A stretch of 37,002 bases of DNA from Actinomycetota bacterium. Its GTDB lineage: Bacteria > Actinomycetota > Acidimicrobiia > Acidimicrobiales > Ilumatobacteraceae. This document shows, in pieces, positions 1 to 29,494 of this stretch. The translations under genes and the position numbers were made by a program. The DNA lies in assembly GCA_016870865.1 (NCBI GenBank), contig VGAC01000018.1:1-37002 (forward strand), written 5' to 3'. Under the pieces are notes generated by a model. The model had not been told where the DNA came from, did no database searches, and saw nothing but the letters and a program-made list of their open reading frames with translations. The first letter of the stretch is position 1. Every line of letters begins with the position of its first letter.

Positions 1-680
1 TTCGACTTGAGAACCTCGGCCGTACCTTCCATCGTGAGTTCGCCGTGCGCCATGACATAGCCACGGTCGGCGACGCTGAGTGCGAGGCCGACGTGCTGTT
101 CGACCATGAGTACGCCCGCTCCGGTTCTGTCTGCGATCTCACGCACGATCGGGAGCATGCGCTCGACAATGATCGGTGCGAGACCGAGGCTCATCTCGTC
201 GACCAGTAACACCTTCGGATTCGAGGCGAGGCCACGTGCCATGGCGAGCATCTGTTGTTCGCCACCCGACAACAGCCCTGCGCGGCGACCGACGAGCGGT
301 CGCAAAGCAGGGAACATCGTCAGGGCGTTCTCCAATGCCTCTGCCTTCTTCTCCCTGTCGGTCGTGAGGCCCAGACGAAGGTTTTCCTGCACGGTGAGGT
401 CGAAGAACAGCGAACGGTCCTCGGCCACGTGGGCCAAACCGCGACGCGCGATCTTCTCCGGACGCTCACCGATCGTCGACGAGCCAAGCACATTGATGTT
501 GCCGGACACCGGCTTGAGGATGCCGCTGATCGTCAGGAGAGTGGTGGTCTTCCCCGCACCATTCGGTCCGAGAAGGGCGACCACCTCACCCGAGTTGACG
601 TGGAGATCGAGTCCACGCACCACGGGGATGCCGCCGTAACCCGCGTTCAGATTCTTCACTTCTATGAGAGCTTCAGTCAT
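1..680 (-). CDS. livF: LivF-type ABC transporter ATP-binding protein (partial, C-terminus off the window)
   Basis: This is the second ATPase of a branched-chain amino acid type (HAAT) importer; it binds ATP on the cytoplasmic side and powers the permease. The reading frame starts with ATG at 680 and stays open to the left edge, giving about 226 residues of an expected 230-240, so only the last few residues are missing. Visible motifs are Walker [10 protein letters not shown] (about residues 38-46), the ABC signature LSGGEQQ, Walker [14 protein letters not shown] and the switch region VEQHV. The gene starts 2 bp after the livG stop and is the last visible gene of the transporter operon. LivF rather than LivG is inferred from its position and from the SLGLAP form of Walker B. 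The transported substrate cannot be read from the ATPase. Confidence 0.93.
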
Positions 681-21498: not shown

Positions 21499-22590
21499 AT
21501 GAGCCAGACACTCAACGACGCAGCCTTCGAAACGGTGACCTTTTCGCACGGTCCGGCGATGCCGAACCGTCTGATGCTTGCACCGTTGACCAACCAACAA
21601 AGCCACATGGATGGGACGTTGTCGGATGCCGAGCACCGCTGGTTGGCGATGCGCGCGCTCGGCGGCTTCGGACTCACCATGACCTGTGCCGCATCGGTGC
21701 AGGCGGTGGGGGTGGGCTTCGCCGGCCAGTTGGGCGTGCATAACGACGCACATGTTGCGGGCCTCACCCGGTTGGCATGCGACATCAAGATGGCCCACAG
21801 TGTCGCGATCGTGCAGTTGCACCACGCGGGGAATCGTTCCCCACGTGAACTCATCGGAACCGATCCGTTGTGCCCGTCCGACGACCCCGAGACGGGGGCC
21901 CGGGCGATGACGAACGTCGAGGTCCACGAGATGATCGGTGCCTTCGTCGCGGCCGCGAAGCGCACGCAGATCGCCGGTTTCGACGGCGTCGAACTGCACG
22001 TCGCACACGGCTATCTGCTGTGCCAATTCCTGTCGTCGGAATTGAACAAGCGCACCGACGAGTTCGGTGGATCACTCGACAACCGCACACGGCCGCTCTT
22101 TGCGATCATCGACGGTATCCGACACGAGTGCGGTGACGATTTCCAGGTCGGCGTGCGGCTGTCACCCGAACGTTTCGGGATGAAACTCGCCGAAATCCGC
22201 GAGGTCTACTCACGGCTCGTCGCAACGGGCCAGGTCGACATGATCGACATGTCGTTGTGGGACTGTACAAAGAACGCCGTCGAAGAGGGGTGGACCGATC
22301 GACGCTTGATCGACGTCTTTGCCGAGATCGACCGTGGCAACGTTCGCCTCGCAGTCGCCGGAAAGTTGTACTCGGCCGCCGCGGTGCGCAGGGCCCTTGG
22401 TGCCGGAGCCGACATCGCGGTTGTCGGCCGTGCAGCGATCACGAACCACGACTTTCCCCGGATGATGCGCGACAATCCCGATTTTGCGATGCGGGAACTC
22501 CCCGTGCCCGCACGGACGCTGCGAGACGAAGGCCTGTCCGACACGTTCGTCGGCTACATGCGCAACTGGAAGGGTTTCGTCACCGACTGA
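21499..22590 (+). CDS. NADH:flavin oxidoreductase (Old Yellow Enzyme family)
   Basis: This 363-residue FMN TIM-barrel ene-reductase resembles 2,4-dienoyl-CoA reductase or xenobiotic reductases. Diagnostic parts are NRLMLAPLTNQQ, the active-site strand VQLHHAGNRSP, GFDGVELHVAHGYLLCQFLS with the flavin/substrate histidines, and ELNKRTDEFGGSLDNRTRP. The phosphate site follows in AVAGKLYSAAAVRRAL and GADIAVVGRAAI. It is a single-domain form without the C-terminal FAD/iron-sulfur part of dienoyl-CoA reductase. A short gap of 20 bp separates it from the TauD gene, so it may be the first gene of the long run that ends in the Dlt-like system, although a metabolic link is not evident. Confidence 0.9.
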   Translation: MSQTLNDAAFETVTFSHGPAMPNRLMLAPLTNQQSHMDGTLSDAEHRWLAMRALGGFGLTMTCAASVQAVGVGFAGQLGVHNDAHVAGLTRLACDIKMAHSVAIVQLHHAGNRSPRELIGTDPLCPSDDPETGARAMTNVEVHEMIGAFVAAAKRTQIAGFDGVELHVAHGYLLCQFLSSELNKRTDEFGGSLDNRTRPLFAIIDGIRHECGDDFQVGVRLSPERFGMKLAEIREVYSRLVATGQVDMIDMSLWDCTKNAVEEGWTDRRLIDVFAEIDRGNVRLAVAGKLYSAAAVRRALGAGADIAVVGRAAITNHDFPRMMRDNPDFAMRELPVPARTLRDEGLSDTFVGYMRNWKGFVTD

Positions 22591-22597
22591 CGAAGGG

Positions 22598-22603
22598 TAC
22601 GGT
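22598..22603 (+). promoter_or_regulatory. Putative -10 box before the TauD gene
   Basis: TACGGT lies 7 nt before GTG 22611. It would allow a leaderless transcript starting here in addition to read-through from the OYE gene. Confidence 0.3.
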
Positions 22604-22610
22604 TTCGGTC

Positions 22611-23450
22611 GTGGAGGTGCAGCGACTCACGGGCGTGTTCGGCGCCGAGGTCGATGTCGGCGATGTGCGTCGCCTCGACGACGGGGCTTTCGCCGAATTG
22701 CGTTCGGTCGTGTGCGAACACGAAGTCGTCGTCGTGCGGGGGCAGAGTCTCGACGTCACCGAACAAGTGGCCTTGTCGCGGCGCTTCGGGCCGGCCGGCC
22801 CGGTTCCGTTCATCGAGCCGAGCCCCGATCACCCCGAGGTCATCAAGGTCCTGAAAGAGGCCTCCGATGGTGCGGCGTTCAACTTCGGCGGAGCATGGCA
22901 CAGTGACTTCAGCTTCCAGTCCGAACCGCCGTCGTTCACGTTGCTCCACGCCATCGACATCCCACCCTACGGCGGCGACACCCTCTGGGCTTCGATGACG
23001 GCTGCCTGGAAACATCTCTCCGACGACCGACGTGCCGAGTTGTCGGCGATCACCGCCGTGCACACCGCACGCGATGCTTACTCCCGCAAGATGCAGCCGC
23101 TGCACTCGGGCTTGTCGGGCATGAACATCGTCTGCGACGACACAGCCAACGACACCGAAGTGCATCCGCTCGTCGTCACGCACCCCGAAACGGGCAGGCA
23201 GGCATTGTTCTTCAACCGTGCGTACGTGCGCGATCTGCTCGGTGTCGATGCCGTCCGCCTGCAGTCGCTGCTCGACTGGCTGCATGCACACACCACCGAT
23301 GCACGATTCACGCTGCGTCACCGTTGGTCGGTGGGTGACCTCGTCATTTGGGACAACCGTTCGACGCAGCACTACGCACTGAACGACTACGCGGGATTCC
23401 GCCGCGAACTGCACCGCACCACGGTTGCGGGCACCCGACCCACGGCCTGA
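22611..23450 (+). CDS. TauD/TfdA-family 2-oxoglutarate-dependent dioxygenase
   Basis: This 279-residue Fe(II)/2-oxoglutarate oxygenase would hydroxylate a small substrate with loss of CO2 from 2-oxoglutarate. The iron ligands are H97 and D99 in GGAWHSDFSF and the distal His in DNRSTQHYALNDY. The 2-oxoglutarate Arg is likely in FRRELHRTTV. IDIPPYGGDTLWASM and GRQALFFNRAYV are typical for the group that includes TauD, TfdA and AtsK. The start GTG 22611 is uncertain; another GTG lies two codons on, and the open frame upstream is antisense or out of context. It is followed after 5 bp by a sulfotransferase-like gene; AtsK-like members cleave sulfate esters, but a shared sulfur role is only a guess. 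Confidence 0.88.
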   Translation: MEVQRLTGVFGAEVDVGDVRRLDDGAFAELRSVVCEHEVVVVRGQSLDVTEQVALSRRFGPAGPVPFIEPSPDHPEVIKVLKEASDGAAFNFGGAWHSDFSFQSEPPSFTLLHAIDIPPYGGDTLWASMTAAWKHLSDDRRAELSAITAVHTARDAYSRKMQPLHSGLSGMNIVCDDTANDTEVHPLVVTHPETGRQALFFNRAYVRDLLGVDAVRLQSLLDWLHAHTTDARFTLRHRWSVGDLVIWDNRSTQHYALNDYAGFRRELHRTTVAGTRPTA

Positions 23451-23455
23451 CGTCG

Positions 23456-24313
23456 ATGTTCCTCGCAATTGCCAGCACGGGTCGTACTGCCACGTCGTAC
23501 ATCGCCGAGGCGCTGAACAAGGTGCCCGGCATTGCCGCCCTGCACGAGGGCCACCTCGGCAACGACGCGGGCCCCGACGTTCTGCCGATGGTCAATCTCG
23601 ACAACTTCCAGTGCTTCAAGAGCGCCTCGCGCGCCGCGGAAGTGGTTGCTGCCAAGCGCAGCACCGCGGTGCTCGATGTCGCACGCAGCGAACTCGGCGT
23701 TGCGCTGCTGGTCGACGTCGCCTATTACAACTCGGTTCTCTTGGATGAGATCCTGACGCAGGCACCCGATGCGCACGGTGCGATCATCATGCGTGACTGC
23801 GAGTCGTTCGTGCGTTCCGCGACGTGGTTCACCGGTACCGACCCGATGCCCGTGGGTTGGCCCGAGCCCGCAAAGGAACTCGATGCACGCGAACGCTTCA
23901 TCGGGATGGGTCGTCTGCGCCCCCACACGGGACCCGACGTCGATGCGTGGCCGGCATGGGGAGGAATCGAACGCAACATCTGGTTGTGGCGCACGACGAA
24001 CACCGTCCTCTGCGATGCACGGGAGCGCCATCCCGGTCGCGTGCACCACATCGACTTCGCAGACTTCACGAGAAATCCGACGGCGGTTCTCGCGTCGCTG
24101 TTGGCTACCATCGGCTGTCCCCTCGGTGAATCCGCAACCGGTGAACTCGAGCGGGCTCTCGTCGAGGCGCGTTCGCACCAAAATGAGAGGATGGGTGGAT
24201 ACCAGGCCGGTCCTGCCGACACCTGGACGGCCGGCCAGCGGCGTCTCCTTGCAGAGGCGCAGATGGCAATCGAGAGTCGAGTGGAGAGTCTGCGTGACCG
24301 AAGGGTTGGTTGA
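23456..24313 (+). CDS. Sulfotransferase-like P-loop protein
   Basis: This 285-residue protein opens with MFLAIASTGRTATSYIAEAL, a strand-loop-helix matching the 5'-phosphosulfate binding loop of sulfotransferases (SxxRTxT). The 3'-phosphate region may be AIIMRDCESFVRSATWF. Further parts are ERNIWLWRTTNTVLCDARER and a terminal IDFADFTRNPTAVLASLLATIG, the usual end of bacterial sulfotransferase-fold proteins. It could transfer sulfate from PAPS to a glycan, lipid or small molecule; no PAPS synthesis genes are in the window. ATG at 23456 is chosen because the frame upstream belongs to the TauD gene. Its end overlaps the carrier protein gene by 20 bp, placing it in the same transcript as the Dlt-like genes. 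Confidence 0.68.
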   Translation: MFLAIASTGRTATSYIAEALNKVPGIAALHEGHLGNDAGPDVLPMVNLDNFQCFKSASRAAEVVAAKRSTAVLDVARSELGVALLVDVAYYNSVLLDEILTQAPDAHGAIIMRDCESFVRSATWFTGTDPMPVGWPEPAKELDARERFIGMGRLRPHTGPDVDAWPAWGGIERNIWLWRTTNTVLCDARERHPGRVHHIDFADFTRNPTAVLASLLATIGCPLGESATGELERALVEARSHQNERMGGYQAGPADTWTAGQRRLLAEAQMAIESRVESLRDRRVG

Positions 24314-24542
24314 CGAGGTGGTGGCGATCGTCGAATCGGTGCTCGCCGCGCGTGGTGCCGGCGGTGTCACGGTCACGGTCGACTCGGGGATGGCCAACCC
24401 CCCCGCATGGGACTCCTTGGCCTTCGTCGAGATCTTCACCACGGTGTCCGAACGTCTGGGCCTCGACGTCAGTGACGACGATGCGATTCACTTCATGACG
24501 GTGCGCGAGATTGTCGACTTCGCGGTCGCCAATCGCCGCTGA
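24294..24542 (+). CDS. Acyl carrier protein (DltC-like)
   Basis: This 82-residue carrier protein would bear a phosphopantetheine arm on S41 in AWDSLAFVEIF, the DSL motif at the start of helix 2. It begins TEGLVDEVVAIVESVLAARG (helix 1) and ends in VREIVDFAVANRR (helix 4). Length matches DltC (about 78). GTG at 24294 has GGAGAG 5 nt upstream inside the end of the sulfotransferase gene. The ligase gene follows after 4 bp. In a Dlt-type system the ligase loads an activated amino acid on this thiol and the MBOAT takes it over. It is not marked as DltC by sequence alone; the context makes the case. Confidence 0.82.
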   Translation: MTEGLVDEVVAIVESVLAARGAGGVTVTVDSGMANPPAWDSLAFVEIFTTVSERLGLDVSDDDAIHFMTVREIVDFAVANRR

Positions 24543-24546
24543 GCCC

Positions 24547-26070
24547 ATGTCCGTCTGTTCGGCGCTCCTCACCGATCGTTGGCGGGCCGAAGGGGCTGAT
24601 CGGTCCGCGTTCGAGGGCGCATTCGGAGCCGAGCCGAAGATCGTGTTGTCGGAAACCGAGGCATCGCTGCACCTCGCGGGGATCGCCGAGTTGCTGCGCA
24701 CCCACGGTGTCGGACCCAACGCGCGGGTGGGGGTGCTCAGCAACCACCGCGTCGAGACGTACCTCGCGGTACTCGCCGTGGTGTCGGTGGGCGGTACTTT
24801 CGTTCCGCTGAACCCGAAGTTTCCGGCCCAACGGCTGCGAACGATCCTCGACCTCGCACGGCCCGTTGTCGTCCTCGGTGACCACACGACCGCGGAACTT
24901 CACCGGAACTTGTCCGGATCGGTTCCCTTCGTCGACGTCGCATCGGCGGGATCATCGGTCAACACCGGGGGAGCGTGGCTCGACGCCGCCGCGGAGGTAC
25001 CCGCAACCGAAAAAGACACGGCGTACGTGATGTTCACATCGGGCTCGACGGGCACCCCGAAGGGCGTTCCGATCTCATACGCGAATCTCGCTGCCTACGT
25101 CGACGGCGTGACAGGGCTCCTCGCGATTCCCGACGGCGCCCGCTTCTCCCAGTTCTTTGACCTCAGTTTCGACCTGTCGATGCACGACATCTTCGTTTCG
25201 ATGCGGCAACGGGGAACCCTCGTCGCGCCGCTGCAGGTCGACCTCATGATGCCCGGCGCGTACGTGGCGCGTGAAGGTATCGACGCCTGGTTCTCGGTGC
25301 CGCTGGTCGGGGCGCAACTCGGTGCCGGAAAGCGCAGGGAGGACTTCGCGGGTTTTTCTTCGATGCTGTTCTGTGGCGAAGCATTGCCGACAGAAACCGT
25401 CGCCGCTTGCCGACCCTGGCTCGCCGAGGGTGGCCGGATGTGGAATCTCTACGGGCCGACCGAGGCCACCATCGCCTTCACCGCCGCCGACGTCACCGAC
25501 TCGTCGCGCACCGAGGGCAACGCATCAATTGGGAAGCCTTTTGGCGTCAACCGCACCGCGTTGCTCACCGCTGACGGAACCGTTGCAACCGAGCCCGGAC
25601 TCGGCGACGAAGGCGAACTGCTCCTCGGCGGCCCGCAGGTCTTCGCGGGTTATTCGAGCGATGTCCCGTCGCCCTTCGTCGAACACGGCGGTGGGAACTG
25701 GTACCGCAGCGGTGACCTCGTGCGCATCGATGCCGAGGGCGTGTACTTCCGTGGTCGTATCGATTCGCAGGTCAAGTTCCGTGGCTATCGCATCGAACTC
25801 GGTGAGATCGAAACCGTCGCGCGGCGCACGTTCGGACTCAAGACCCTCGCCGTCGTCGTATCGGGCGATGGCGCCGGGGCGCGACTCGTGATGTTCCATC
25901 TCGCCCACGAGACGACCGACGCACTCGACCTTGGGCGCCTCGCAACAGATCTACCGAACTACATGATCCCCGCCGAGGCCGTTGCGCTCGATGAGATGCC
26001 GACGAACCAGAACGGCAAGATCGACCGGCGCGCCCTTGTCTCGCGCTCGCGCGGGAAGCAGGGGCCATGA
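24547..26070 (+). CDS. DltA-like amino acid-carrier protein ligase (AMP-forming)
   Basis: This 507-residue adenylating enzyme would activate an acid with ATP and load it on the adjacent carrier protein. Core motifs are FTSGSTGTPKG (163-173), NLYGPTEATI (300-309), YRSGD, the hinge FRGRIDSQVKFRGYRIELGE and the catalytic Lys K491 in NQNGKIDRR. Length fits DltA (about 505) rather than a modular NRPS domain. Two pocket features also fit DltA: FDLSMHDIF, whose D209 aligns with the Asp that holds the amino group of the substrate, and FCGEALP, whose C276 aligns with the Cys linked to D-alanine selection in Bacillus DltA. An amino acid, possibly D-alanine, is thus the likely substrate. The stop overlaps the MBOAT start by 4 bp. 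Confidence 0.85.
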   Translation: MSVCSALLTDRWRAEGADRSAFEGAFGAEPKIVLSETEASLHLAGIAELLRTHGVGPNARVGVLSNHRVETYLAVLAVVSVGGTFVPLNPKFPAQRLRTILDLARPVVVLGDHTTAELHRNLSGSVPFVDVASAGSSVNTGGAWLDAAAEVPATEKDTAYVMFTSGSTGTPKGVPISYANLAAYVDGVTGLLAIPDGARFSQFFDLSFDLSMHDIFVSMRQRGTLVAPLQVDLMMPGAYVAREGIDAWFSVPLVGAQLGAGKRREDFAGFSSMLFCGEALPTETVAACRPWLAEGGRMWNLYGPTEATIAFTAADVTDSSRTEGNASIGKPFGVNRTALLTADGTVATEPGLGDEGELLLGGPQVFAGYSSDVPSPFVEHGGGNWYRSGDLVRIDAEGVYFRGRIDSQVKFRGYRIELGEIETVARRTFGLKTLAVVVSGDGAGARLVMFHLAHETTDALDLGRLATDLPNYMIPAEAVALDEMPTNQNGKIDRRALVSRSRGKQGP

Positions 26071-27116
26071 CTCCTCTCGCCCACGTCGTCACGATCCTCG
26101 CCTCGCTACCGCTTGCACACTTCCTGCCGCGCCGCCCGCGGCTCATCTTCGTCACGCTCGTCGGCGCAGTCTTCATGTTGATGCTCGCCCCCGCGGGTTT
26201 CTGGGTCGTCTGTGCGACCATCGTCGAGGCGCTCATTCTCGAACGACTGCTTCGAAATCTTCCGAAAAAGTCGGCCATCCGGCAATACCTCCCGTACGTC
26301 TTGTTGCTGAACGTCTTTTCCACCGATCTCGCAAACGGTGCACTGTCACGGCAAGACTTCCTCACCGCAGGCGTCGCCTTTTCCGTCGTGCGCGTGTTCA
26401 TGACAACCAAACAACTACTCGGTACGAACTCGACGACTTTGCCGCAACGACTCGTCTCGCTCGCCGCTGGCGGTTGGTTCCTGCCCGCCGTGGTCATCGG
26501 CCCCGTCTTTGCGGGCACCGCGCTCTGGGAGCAGACGCAAAGGGGGAGCGAGGAGCCCGATGTCGGTGCCACCGAGTTGCTCTATCGCAAGTTCTTGGGC
26601 GGCTGGTTGCTCGCTGTGCTCGTCTCTGACTGGTTGGTGCAAGAGTCCGGCGGGTCGGACCTGGGGCGGTGGACCGCACCGTTCGTCATGCTCGCGCTCT
26701 TTGGTCACCTGTTTGCGGCGTTCTGGGGACAGTCGCTGATTGCCGAATCGGGGGCCGCCCTCGCCGGGTTCCGGATCCCCGCGAATTTCGATCGTCCCTG
26801 GCGTGCGGTCGACATTCGTGACTTCTGGAACCGCTGGCACATGTCGATGGCCCGGTTCGTGATGCAGTACTTCTTCCTGCCCCTCAACCTGCGCGGCGTG
26901 AATGCGCGCATCGCCACGACCATCGCCTTCGTCTTCATGGGCCTGTGGCACGAGGTGCGGGTGGGTTATGTCATCTGGGGCGTCGCGCACGGCCTGTTGA
27001 TGGCCTTCGGCCCGAAGACCGCCGACCTCTCCTCGCGCACCACCCGCTGTGCCAACCGTGTCGTGACACTGTCGAGCGTCATCCTTCTCTCGTACGTGGC
27101 GAACTATGCGTTCTGA
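26067..27116 (+). CDS. MBOAT membrane O-acyltransferase (DltB-like)
   Basis: This 349-residue polytopic membrane protein would take the acyl group from the carrier protein on the inside and pass it outward. The MBOAT core is clear: DFWNRWHMSMARFVMQYFFL (253-272), FMGLWHEVRVGYVIWGVAHG (290-309), with the invariant histidines H295 and H308. About nine to ten hydrophobic segments are seen, starting at residues 5-20 and 27-57. DltB and AlgI are longer (400 or more), so this is a compact form, mainly short in the N-terminal half. ATG 26067 overlaps the ligase stop, and the SGNH gene begins inside its last codons (11-bp overlap). The order ligase, MBOAT, DltD-like matches A-B-D of dlt operons. Confidence 0.86.
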   Translation: MTPLAHVVTILASLPLAHFLPRRPRLIFVTLVGAVFMLMLAPAGFWVVCATIVEALILERLLRNLPKKSAIRQYLPYVLLLNVFSTDLANGALSRQDFLTAGVAFSVVRVFMTTKQLLGTNSTTLPQRLVSLAAGGWFLPAVVIGPVFAGTALWEQTQRGSEEPDVGATELLYRKFLGGWLLAVLVSDWLVQESGGSDLGRWTAPFVMLALFGHLFAAFWGQSLIAESGAALAGFRIPANFDRPWRAVDIRDFWNRWHMSMARFVMQYFFLPLNLRGVNARIATTIAFVFMGLWHEVRVGYVIWGVAHGLLMAFGPKTADLSSRTTRCANRVVTLSSVILLSYVANYAF

Positions 27117-28161
27117 ACGTCTCCTCGCCCGACGTCTGGTGGTGCCCGTCATCGCGCTCGTGGTCATCGTCGTGCCGTCGTACAACTGGCTACGTGCCGG
27201 ACACGTTCCGGGCAGGTACGTGAATCGTTGTCAGGCGCAGGTGTTCGAAGACGACGTGCCGGCCGCCGACCTGTTGTTGATCGGTGCCAGTCGCGCCGGC
27301 TTCGGCATCGACGACGGTCTCGTCGACTTGCGTCTGTCAGCCACAAAAGCACATCGCACGGAGAAGATCGTGCTGCTCGGCAACGCCGAGTCCGATGCCA
27401 ACATGGCATTGCGCACGTATCTTCGCGAACGCGGCGCTCCCCGCAAGCTCGGCATCGAGATCCTCATCACCCGTGTCGCGGGCGACTCTGCGCCGGCGCG
27501 ATTGGGCGCCGACCTGACGAAGCGCTCGTACGCTCTCTTCGGCACCGACGCGTACTCGGGCTACCTCGGCGCACTTCTCGACCGCAACGTCATCGGGTTG
27601 GCCGACATTTACGCGCGTTCGTACATGCCGTCACCCGTGAAGTTCTTCTTCGAGCACCTGCAGATCGGCCTCGACAACGCCTATCGCAATCCCGACCAGA
27701 CACTTGATCCGATGGGCCACTGCGCGAGCACGGTTCTGCCCGTGTGGGGACCCGTTGCCGCGGTGCCCTACACAGACGCCACGCCCCGACCCACGCAACG
27801 CAAACTCGAACGTTTGGCACGTGAGTCCGAGCGCTACGTGCCCATCAACCTCGACAGCCGCCGCGCTTCGGGCGAGATCGCGGTCATGCGCGACATGGTG
27901 AAAATCGCCCGTGATGCAGGGGTGCGAGACGTCTTTTTCTACTACTTCCCGTCGTTTGGTGAACCCGCCGACACCATCGACCTACAACGGGTTGCGGAGC
28001 TCGTGCCCGGCGCGGGAATCTTCGACGCCCGGCCCGTCGTCAGGGACCCGAACAAGCCGGGACTCGATCTGCAGTTCGAGGACCGTGCACACCTCACCAA
28101 GTACGGGGCCTATGAAGTGACCGACGCATTCGTCGACTTTCTCGAAGGTCTCGACAAATGA
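27106..28161 (+). CDS. DltD-like membrane-anchored SGNH/GDSL protein
   Basis: This 351-residue protein has one N-terminal membrane segment (LVVPVIALVVIVVPSYNWL, about 11-29) and an extracytoplasmic domain. The nucleophile strand reads LLLIGASRAGFG with S62 in the GxS position. The C-terminal DxxH is D326-H329 in EDRAHLTKYGAYEVTDAFV, and FFYYFPSFGEPADT lies before it. These are features of the SGNH hydrolase fold used by DltD and by AlgX/AlgJ-type partners of MBOATs. Overall similarity to DltD is weak by eye, so DltD-like rests on topology, catalytic residues and operon position. It would place the acyl group on the final acceptor outside the membrane. It overlaps the tiny downstream gene as ATGA. 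Confidence 0.75.
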   Translation: MRSERLLARRLVVPVIALVVIVVPSYNWLRAGHVPGRYVNRCQAQVFEDDVPAADLLLIGASRAGFGIDDGLVDLRLSATKAHRTEKIVLLGNAESDANMALRTYLRERGAPRKLGIEILITRVAGDSAPARLGADLTKRSYALFGTDAYSGYLGALLDRNVIGLADIYARSYMPSPVKFFFEHLQIGLDNAYRNPDQTLDPMGHCASTVLPVWGPVAAVPYTDATPRPTQRKLERLARESERYVPINLDSRRASGEIAVMRDMVKIARDAGVRDVFFYYFPSFGEPADTIDLQRVAELVPGAGIFDARPVVRDPNKPGLDLQFEDRAHLTKYGAYEVTDAFVDFLEGLDK

Positions 28162-28289
28162 AGAATTTCTTCACCACCCACCCGCGTGCCCGCAAGGTCC
28201 TCGCCTGGATCGGTCTCGTCGTGGCCGCTTTCGTGCTCTTCCGCTGGGTCGAACCCGCGGCCTTCGAATCCCCGTACAACAACTTCTGA
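28158..28289 (+). CDS. DltX-like 43-aa single-pass membrane peptide
   Basis: This 43-residue peptide starts MKNFFTTHPRARKVLAWIGL with a basic cytoplasmic end, has one membrane segment (about residues 14-28) and an outside tail that ends exactly in ESPYNNF. DltX peptides of Firmicutes have the same plan, about 50 residues with one membrane helix and a C-terminal Phe-x-Tyr-x-x-Phe such as FIYNEF. There the Tyr is reported to carry the acyl group between DltB and DltD. Here Y40 and F43 keep the YxxF spacing and the free C-terminus; the first Phe is two positions further out. The ATG overlaps the stop of the DltD-like gene (ATGA), so it is the last gene of the operon. It is easily missed because of its length. 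Confidence 0.75.
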   Translation: MKNFFTTHPRARKVLAWIGLVVAAFVLFRWVEPAAFESPYNNF

Positions 28290-28307
28290 ACCGCCCGCAA
28301 TCGAACC

Positions 28308-28313
28308 TAGGCT
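28308..28313 (+). promoter_or_regulatory. Putative -10 box for leaderless mftD
   Basis: TAGGCT lies 8 nt before ATG 28322, and no Shine-Dalgarno sequence is seen in between. Confidence 0.4.
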
Positions 28314-28321
28314 GTCCCACC

Positions 28322-29494
28322 ATGGGCAACCCGTGGTTCGAAACCGTCGCCATCGCACAGCGCAGGGCGCAGCGTCGTCTGCCCAAATCGGTGTACGGCG
28401 CCATCGTCGGCGGGTCGGAGAAGGGCCTCACGTTCAGCGACAACCTCAACGCGTTCGACGAGCTCGGCCTCGCACCGCACATCGCCGATTTGCATGCGGG
28501 TCGCGACCAGTCGACGAGCGTGATGGGTCAGCAAGTGTCGATGCCGGTCATCATTTCGCCTACGGGCGTGCAGGCGGTGCACCCCGACGGTGAGGTTGCC
28601 GTCGCGCGCGCCGCGGCAAATCGCGGAGTCATGATGGGCCTGAGTTCCTTTGCCAGCAAGTCGATCGAGGAAGTGACGGCGGTGAACAACCAGGTTCTCT
28701 TCCAGCTGTACTGGTCGGGGGGCCGCGACACGATGGTGCAGCGCCTCGAACGTGCGGCGGCTGCGGGTGCCAAGGGCATCATCCTCACCCTCGACTGGAC
28801 GTTCTCGAACGGCCGCGACTGGGGAAGCCCGTGGATTCCCGAAAAGGTCGGCTTGAAGGAACTCGTCAAGCTCGCCCCGCAGGGCCTATCGCGGCCGCGC
28901 TGGCTGTGGATGTACGCCAAGACGTTCGGCTTGCCCGATCTCTCGACACCCAACATGGCGGCCCCGGGCGAGAAGCCGCCGACGTTTTTCGGCGCCTACT
29001 TCGAGTGGATGCAGAGCACGCCGCCGAGTTGGCAAGACGTCGCCTGGTTGAGGTCGCAATGGAATGGCCCGTTCATGGTCAAGGGCGTGTGCCGTGTCGA
29101 CGATGCCAAGCGTGTGGTCGACGCAGGGGCATCGGCTCTTTCCGTGTCCAACCACGGTGGCAACAACCTCGACGGTACACCCGCGCCGATCCGTGTGTTG
29201 CCCTCGATCGCCGATGCGGTCGGCGACCAAATCGAGGTCGTCCTCGACGGTGGAGTGCGTCGTGGTAGCGACGTGGTCAAGTGCCTGGCCCTGGGCGCAA
29301 AGGCCGTCATGATCGGGCGTGCCTATCTGTGGGGACTGTCGGCGAACGGTCAGGCGGGGGTGGAGAACGTACTCGACATCCTCCGCGGTGGAATCGACTC
29401 GGCTTTGCTCGGCTTGGGCAAGTCGCACGTCAAGGAACTCGATCGCGGCGACGTCGTGATTCCCGACGGGTTCACACGCACGCTGGGTGCGTGA
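28322..29494 (+). CDS. mftD: Pre-mycofactocin synthase MftD
   Basis: This 390-residue FMN enzyme of the alpha-hydroxy-acid dehydrogenase fold matches MftD, which oxidatively deaminates the VY-derived precursor to pre-mycofactocin. The start NPWFETVAIAQRRAQRRLPK, the GGSEKGLTFSDN segment, VIISPTGVQAVHPDGEVAVA, GRDWGSPWIPEK, the FMN/active-site SVSNHGGNNLDGTPAPIRVL and ALGAKAVMIGRAYLWGLSAN are as in mycobacterial MftD, from memory. Lactate dehydrogenase LldD is the alternative, but its N-terminus differs. No mftA, mftB, mftC, mftE or mftF is seen in the window, so the gene is separated from the usual cluster. The product would support mycofactocin-dependent dehydrogenases. It converges with the SnoaL-like gene with one base between stops. 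Confidence 0.85.
   Translation: MGNPWFETVAIAQRRAQRRLPKSVYGAIVGGSEKGLTFSDNLNAFDELGLAPHIADLHAGRDQSTSVMGQQVSMPVIISPTGVQAVHPDGEVAVARAAANRGVMMGLSSFASKSIEEVTAVNNQVLFQLYWSGGRDTMVQRLERAAAAGAKGIILTLDWTFSNGRDWGSPWIPEKVGLKELVKLAPQGLSRPRWLWMYAKTFGLPDLSTPNMAAPGEKPPTFFGAYFEWMQSTPPSWQDVAWLRSQWNGPFMVKGVCRVDDAKRVVDAGASALSVSNHGGNNLDGTPAPIRVLPSIADAVGDQIEVVLDGGVRRGSDVVKCLALGAKAVMIGRAYLWGLSANGQAGVENVLDILRGGIDSALLGLGKSHVKELDRGDVVIPDGFTRTLGA

Follow-up and report, generated by a model that had tools for sequence, protein, structure and literature searches.

A conserved 43-residue membrane peptide beside an MBOAT without a fused tail: a candidate DltX-like acyl shuttle in an actinobacterial operon

A membrane peptide of 43 residues, encoded at positions 28158-28289 of the forward strand, is the product of a real and conserved gene that stands last in an eight-gene operon of an Actinomycetota bacterium. 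The operon lies in the window, the whole stretch of 37,002 nucleotides that was analysed. Judged from its sequence, the peptide very probably serves as a detached acyl-shuttle microprotein, DltX-like in function, that works with the MBOAT and the SGNH-like protein encoded before it. The founding paper in print is reportedly that of Schultz, Snow and Walker in Nat. Microbiol., 2023.

The peptide gene and its operon

The peptide gene begins in an ATGA overlap, in which its ATG shares bases with the TGA of the preceding SGNH-like gene (ending at 28161), and its stop lies 128 bases beyond the stop of this partner. The product, MKNFFTTHPRARKVLAWIGLVVAAFVLFRWVEPAAFESPYNNF, has a single hydrophobic segment (best 19-residue window 14-32, mean KD 1.98) between a basic N-terminus and an eleven-residue tail that ends in SPYNNF, with Y40 encoded at 28275-28277 and F43 at 28284-28286. 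The coordinates, the 43 codons, the one helix, the C-terminal residues and the overlap had all been described in the sequence-only reading and stand as described. Because a basic N-terminus precedes one helix and an eleven-residue tail, the positive-inside rule predicts from hydropathy and charge that the N-terminus is inside and the C-terminus outside.

Relatives were found by scanning genome contigs with the SGNH-like protein that precedes the peptide, and three were obtained. The 43-codon frame is in place in all three with 60-74% identity overall, and its last eight residues, FESPYNNF, are identical in the four genomes, in which WVEPA.FESPYNNF is unchanged. The pN/pS ratio is 0.29-0.53 across the six pairwise comparisons, and in every pair the differences are concentrated at third codon positions, a coding substitution pattern of a gene under purifying selection. 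The Tyr at -4 and the C-terminal Phe are invariant in the four genomes, which bears out the exact Tyr-x-x-Phe-COOH spacing emphasized by the sequence-only reading; its check of related genomes for the short ORF, set beforehand, finds Y40 and F43 kept in every relative. Of the stop-terminated frames with 20 aa or more in the window and one relative's contig (L073), 1192 in all, two have Y-x-x-F ends, and these are the peptide, once in each. The hexapeptide FxYxxF is incomplete, with Ser38 at -6 where the motif has its first aromatic residue, and Ser is found there in all four genomes. A frame of 43 residues with no family match over cut-off might be a chance ORF and not a gene; the conserved position, the identical FESPYNNF end and the substitution pattern make this extremely improbable, and it was rejected.

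The order of the eight genes is identical in the window and the three relatives. On the forward strand, the conserved block opens with an old-yellow-enzyme-type flavin oxidoreductase (21499-22590; PF00724, 179.7 bits, and synteny), followed by a TauD/TfdA dioxygenase (22599-23450; PF02668, 223.7 bits), a sulfotransferase-like protein (23456-24313; PF13469, 28 bits, cut-off 27), a dedicated acyl carrier protein with a DSL motif (24294-24542; PF00550, 24.7 bits, cut-off 20.8), a DltA-like amino acid adenylation enzyme (24547-26070; PF00501, 197.5 bits; TIGR01733, 283.4 bits, cut-off 317.4), the MBOAT (26067-27116), the SGNH/DltD-like protein (27106-28161) and the peptide. In the window these genes overlap or stand within about ten bases of each other, with the starts of the dioxygenase, the sulfotransferase-like protein and the carrier (GTG) assumed. 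An RF3-like gene on the opposite strand precedes the block in the window and all three relatives, and mftD follows it.

The mftD gene (28322-29494; TIGR03966, 688 bits) begins 33 bases past the peptide. The intervening positions 28290-28321 hold a stretch around TAGGCTG that is conserved in the four genomes and is perhaps the promoter of mftD. The adenylation gene is split in two frames in the relatives L074 and L075 (also L028 and L027); in L074 it lacks part of its length and mftD is interrupted too, and these broken adenylation genes reflect either assembly error or decay.

Of the 13 genomes of the genus, four have the operon, as judged by its MBOAT and SGNH-like protein, and the same four have an mftD orthologue; the other nine reach a completeness of only 76-92%, and gaps may account for some of the absences. 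A profile search with the SGNH-like protein among 221 genomes of the family gave four matches in one genus and none outside it, and the window's own genome is the sole match among 396 sampled genomes of the phylum. Viral contigs searched with the SGNH profile yielded 44 pattern matches and zero relatives, and plasmids gave no match to either the SGNH-like protein or the peptide.

The MBOAT and its SGNH-like partner

The MBOAT (349 aa; PF03062, 66.1 bits, cut-off 27) ends in SYVANYAF and has no FxYxxF at its own end. The comparison comprises 21 other MBOAT loci in relatives, of which 19 have a closed ORF; a fused aromatic-x-Y-x-x-F end is carried by 18 of the 19 closed MBOAT ORFs of the order, with L019 as the exception. 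Where the core is matched to its end, it is followed by about 120-135 residues in fused MBOATs, by 50-54 in three DltB rows and by 36 in the window MBOAT, which therefore lacks the shuttle-bearing tail, as DltB does. Since the tail is missing, the Y-x-x-F shuttle motif would be supplied by the peptide.

Two other readings of the peptide bear on this tail. The first takes the MBOAT's own C-terminus, SYVANYAF, as the shuttle and the peptide as a part that merely holds the complex together. VANYAF is indeed invariant in the four genomes, in part because the 3' end of the MBOAT gene is shared with the beginning of the next one. However, its Tyr stands at -3 and not at -4, the correct spacing is found in the peptide, and the window MBOAT lacks the two additional helices of the fused type; this use of the MBOAT's C-terminal Tyr is very improbable and was rejected on its spacing and the missing helices. 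The second sees the peptide as a small subunit, structural or regulatory, with no acyl-carrier role, as one-helix subunits are common in membrane complexes. It is improbable, as it neither accounts for the invariance of the C-terminal eight residues rather than of the helix nor explains the missing MBOAT tail.

The fused tails of other MBOATs vary as well. Two of them, in L071 and L069, have Ser or Pro at -6 (GSIYGRF, TPIYFQF) and are a precedent for a missing first F of FxYxxF. On a Metabacillus plasmid (L068, 1652-5980), an MBOAT whose fused tail ends FIYGGF has a carrier protein, an AMP-binding gene and a hypothetical protein as neighbours, so fused-tail MBOATs fed by a carrier may occur as well.

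The catalytic His of the window MBOAT is His295 (codon 26949-26951), which aligns with His336 of Streptococcus thermophilus DltB and is unchanged in all 61 aligned MBOATs; the available text of PMC11035591 assigns His336 an active-site role. The sequence-only reading had named H308, which, unlike H295, is kept in 7 of 8 DltB and 43 of 49 other aligned MBOATs and was rejected in favour of H295. Directly after the catalytic His, all four genomes have Glu (E296, 26952-26954) at a position occupied by Gly in all 57 other aligned MBOATs, a replacement that counts against the shuttle reading of the peptide.

Of 26 alignment columns diagnostic for DltB versus the fused type, the window MBOAT has the DltB residue in 6 (N255, M291, Y301 and three more), the fused-type residue in 7 and neither in 13. 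The DltB model TIGR04091 gives it 77.8 of 375 bits, whereas fused MBOATs mostly reach 115-197 on the same model. The branch that leads to the window group in the MBOAT tree is very long (5.49). A quick tree unites the group with DltB (SH-aLRT 81, with a long-branch warning), and the data do not reject a clade of the window MBOAT with L068/L070/L071 (p-AU 0.40). The tree omits six near-copies or repeats, two open ORFs and one locus repeat, and the quick tree five more rows. The trees give no firm placement and are not used as evidence for origin; the window MBOAT is a lineage of its own.

Only two short blocks support the assignment of the SGNH/DltD-like protein (351 aa, with an N-terminal helix), a point against the shuttle reading: LLLIGASR and, near the C-terminus, QFEDRAHLTKYG, which resemble the DltD catalytic blocks GSSE and D-x-x-H. 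The candidate catalytic residues Ser62 (GASR), Asp326 and His329 (DRAHLT) are invariant in the four genomes. No Pfam or NCBIfam family passes its cut-off on this protein, the best being PF19040 SGNH at E 0.25 (in a relative, L029). Two hhalign comparisons with DltD profiles, the second using DltD from 26 actinobacterial and two Bacillota loci, reveal no overall similarity (probability 0.35% and 0.5%, at low power with four close rows), so the DltD-like partner of the sequence-only reading finds no support from profiles. AlphaFold2 models built on four-row alignments have a mean pLDDT of 41.2 for the MBOAT and 38.4 for the SGNH-like protein and are too poor for use; a fold search with the latter model gave a best E of 0.54, which is meaningless on a model of that quality.

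Comparison with DltX, Dlt operons and fused shuttles

The peptide resembles DltX in its length, one helix, basic N-terminus and C-terminal Y-N-x-F, and its Tyr, Asn and final Phe are common to three Bacillota DltX. In contrast, it has Ser at -6 and Pro at -5, and the DltX family model PF12459 gives no match on the peptide at E <= 1, in the whole genome at E <= 10 or on the two relatives' peptides that were scanned, while two Bacillota DltX used as controls match at 57.6 and 58.2 bits. The missing match and these two residues also speak against the shuttle reading. The likeness to DltX proposed by the sequence-only reading thus survives as a role, which Y40 and F43, the topology, the MBOAT without a tail and a position common to actinobacterial Dlt microproteins support, and fails as literal membership, with no PF12459 match, no similarity beyond the motif and Ser at -6. 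The available text of PMC5541007 describes Gram-negative DltX proteins with a common topology and no sequence similarity, and reports that dltX is often overlooked in annotation.

The operon as a whole is Dlt-like in combining an A-domain, a carrier protein, an MBOAT, an SGNH-like protein and the peptide. This gene set favours a rival reading, namely a fast-evolved canonical Dlt system that places D-alanine onto a teichoic-acid-like polymer with a true DltX, DltB and DltD. The adenylation enzyme, at 25-26% identity to three DltAs, has SFDLS and FCGE in common with them, and the DltB-type residues of the MBOAT and its junction with DltB in the quick tree point the same way. However, the partners are divergent. 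The adenylation enzyme reaches 201.8 of 559.85 bits on TIGR01734 (DltA), under the cut-off; the MBOAT scores below most fused MBOATs on the DltB model, is of neither type in half of the diagnostic columns and joins DltB under a long-branch warning; and the SGNH-like protein has no DltD similarity in profile comparisons. As to a teichoic acid acceptor, no PF04464 (TagF-type) enzyme is found in the 96%-complete genome, although two LytR-CpsA-Psr proteins are present. The TauD, flavin-reductase and sulfotransferase-like genes are three extra genes, absent from the Dlt operons annotated here, and the peptide gene stands last, whereas dltX precedes dltA in the three Bacillota loci with dltX that were examined. 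A canonical Dlt system is accordingly unlikely, though far from negligible. Because the defining tests fail, the peptide is not shown to be DltX in a Dlt system.

PatA/PatB and other fused-shuttle MBOAT-SGNH acyltransferases offer a second comparison. The MBOAT His, the SGNH partner and the putative acyl-Tyr shuttle are common to both; the motif is fused to the MBOAT there, whereas the window MBOAT has no fused motif. In the available text of a 2025 paper (PMC12148441), acyl-Tyr chemistry is established for DltX and PatA, and PatA uses acetyl-CoA with neither a carrier protein nor a microprotein.

True Dlt loci were drawn from another order of the same phylum, that of genome G235, in which DltB passes the curated cut-off in 31 of 120 genomes at 33 places. 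All 33 loci were fetched (L091-L096 and L123-L149) and scanned for frames with a helix that end in Y-x-x-[FYWLMI]. An operon-strand one-helix frame ending Y-x-x-F/Y is present in 30 of them, and the three others (L124, L140, L142) reach the contig end downstream. By the same criterion, 33 frames lie on the operon strand (30/33 loci; L128 counts twice) and one on the opposite strand (1/33), a control that matters because the scan itself required Tyr. Omission of two frames before dltA (L133 and L134, ending FYDYF) leaves 31 microproteins, in which Tyr at -4 is universal by construction, unlike their presence, position and other residues. They lie directly after dltD (24), after dltC (6) or after dltB (1); 29 of them end in F and two in Y, position -6 holds F (23 peptides), P (7) or L (1), and position -5 is V, I, A or L where the window peptide has Pro. 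The Pfam DltX model passes one of the 12 microproteins scanned (L149, 27.5 bits, cut-off 25) and misses 11, and L149 thus ties the group to DltX. An NCBIfam scan of 6 of the 31 is uninformative because two Bacillota DltX are missed too.

A DltX encoded downstream and mostly overlooked by the Pfam model seems usual in the G235 order, and the window peptide, next after the SGNH-like gene, fits this position. It shares with these microproteins the place after a DltD-type gene, the topology and the Y-x-x-F end, and several of them also lack F at -6; the difference is that theirs adjoin DltA, DltB, DltC and DltD that pass or resemble the Dlt models. In a limited search of the open-access literature, no title or abstract opening among the matches listed names a DltX of actinobacteria. 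A profile of the 31 microproteins ranks the four window-type peptides, which are close relatives of each other, 1, 3, 5 and 6 of 1872 frames (E 0.16 to 0.79), the window peptide itself having an insignificant E of 0.65. A C-anchored score ranks them 1, 2, 1 and 1 (among 534, 281, 277 and 158 frames), and with positions -4 and -1 removed the ranks fall to 12, 12, 12 and 3. Since the E-values are insignificant and the ranks depend on the motif, no homology is claimed. An ungapped comparison, a weak test that also fails a Bacillota DltX, finds no similarity beyond the two motif residues.

Proposed acyl relay and its wider meaning

In the mechanism that we infer for the shuttle reading, the adenylation enzyme would load an amino acid, or an amino-acid-like acid, on the carrier protein, and the loaded carrier would dock on the MBOAT at the cytoplasmic side. 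His295 of the MBOAT would then pass the acyl group across the membrane to Tyr40 of the peptide, near its outer C-terminus; from Tyr40 the group would move to Ser62, and with it the SGNH-like protein would esterify an acceptor outside the cell. Our guess, by analogy, is that the cargo is a small alpha-amino acid, because we take the Asp of SFDLS as the residue that binds the alpha-amino group and the FCGE Cys as the one that favours D-Ala in DltA. That the operon also encodes TauD, flavin-reductase and sulfotransferase-like proteins suggests that the cargo or the acceptor is tailored, and these proteins would probably make or tailor it.

A bolder proposal, tentative and on balance somewhat doubtful, is that the operon encodes a second, non-Dlt carrier-protein system, in which a free shuttle would carry an aminoacyl group tailored by hydroxylation, reduction or sulfation and not D-alanine, and in which the separation of shuttle and MBOAT may have arisen independently of DltX. 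MBOAT/SGNH pathways besides Dlt have neither a DltX-like microprotein nor a carrier protein as described in the available text of PMC12148441. The operon has both a carrier and a microprotein, yet falls under the Dlt cut-offs, and therefore the free-shuttle design may extend beyond Dlt. The peptide also provides a simple search rule for such shuttles, a one-helix ORF with a Y-x-x-F end next to an MBOAT without a tail, with candidates in nearly all of the actinobacterial Dlt loci (30/33).
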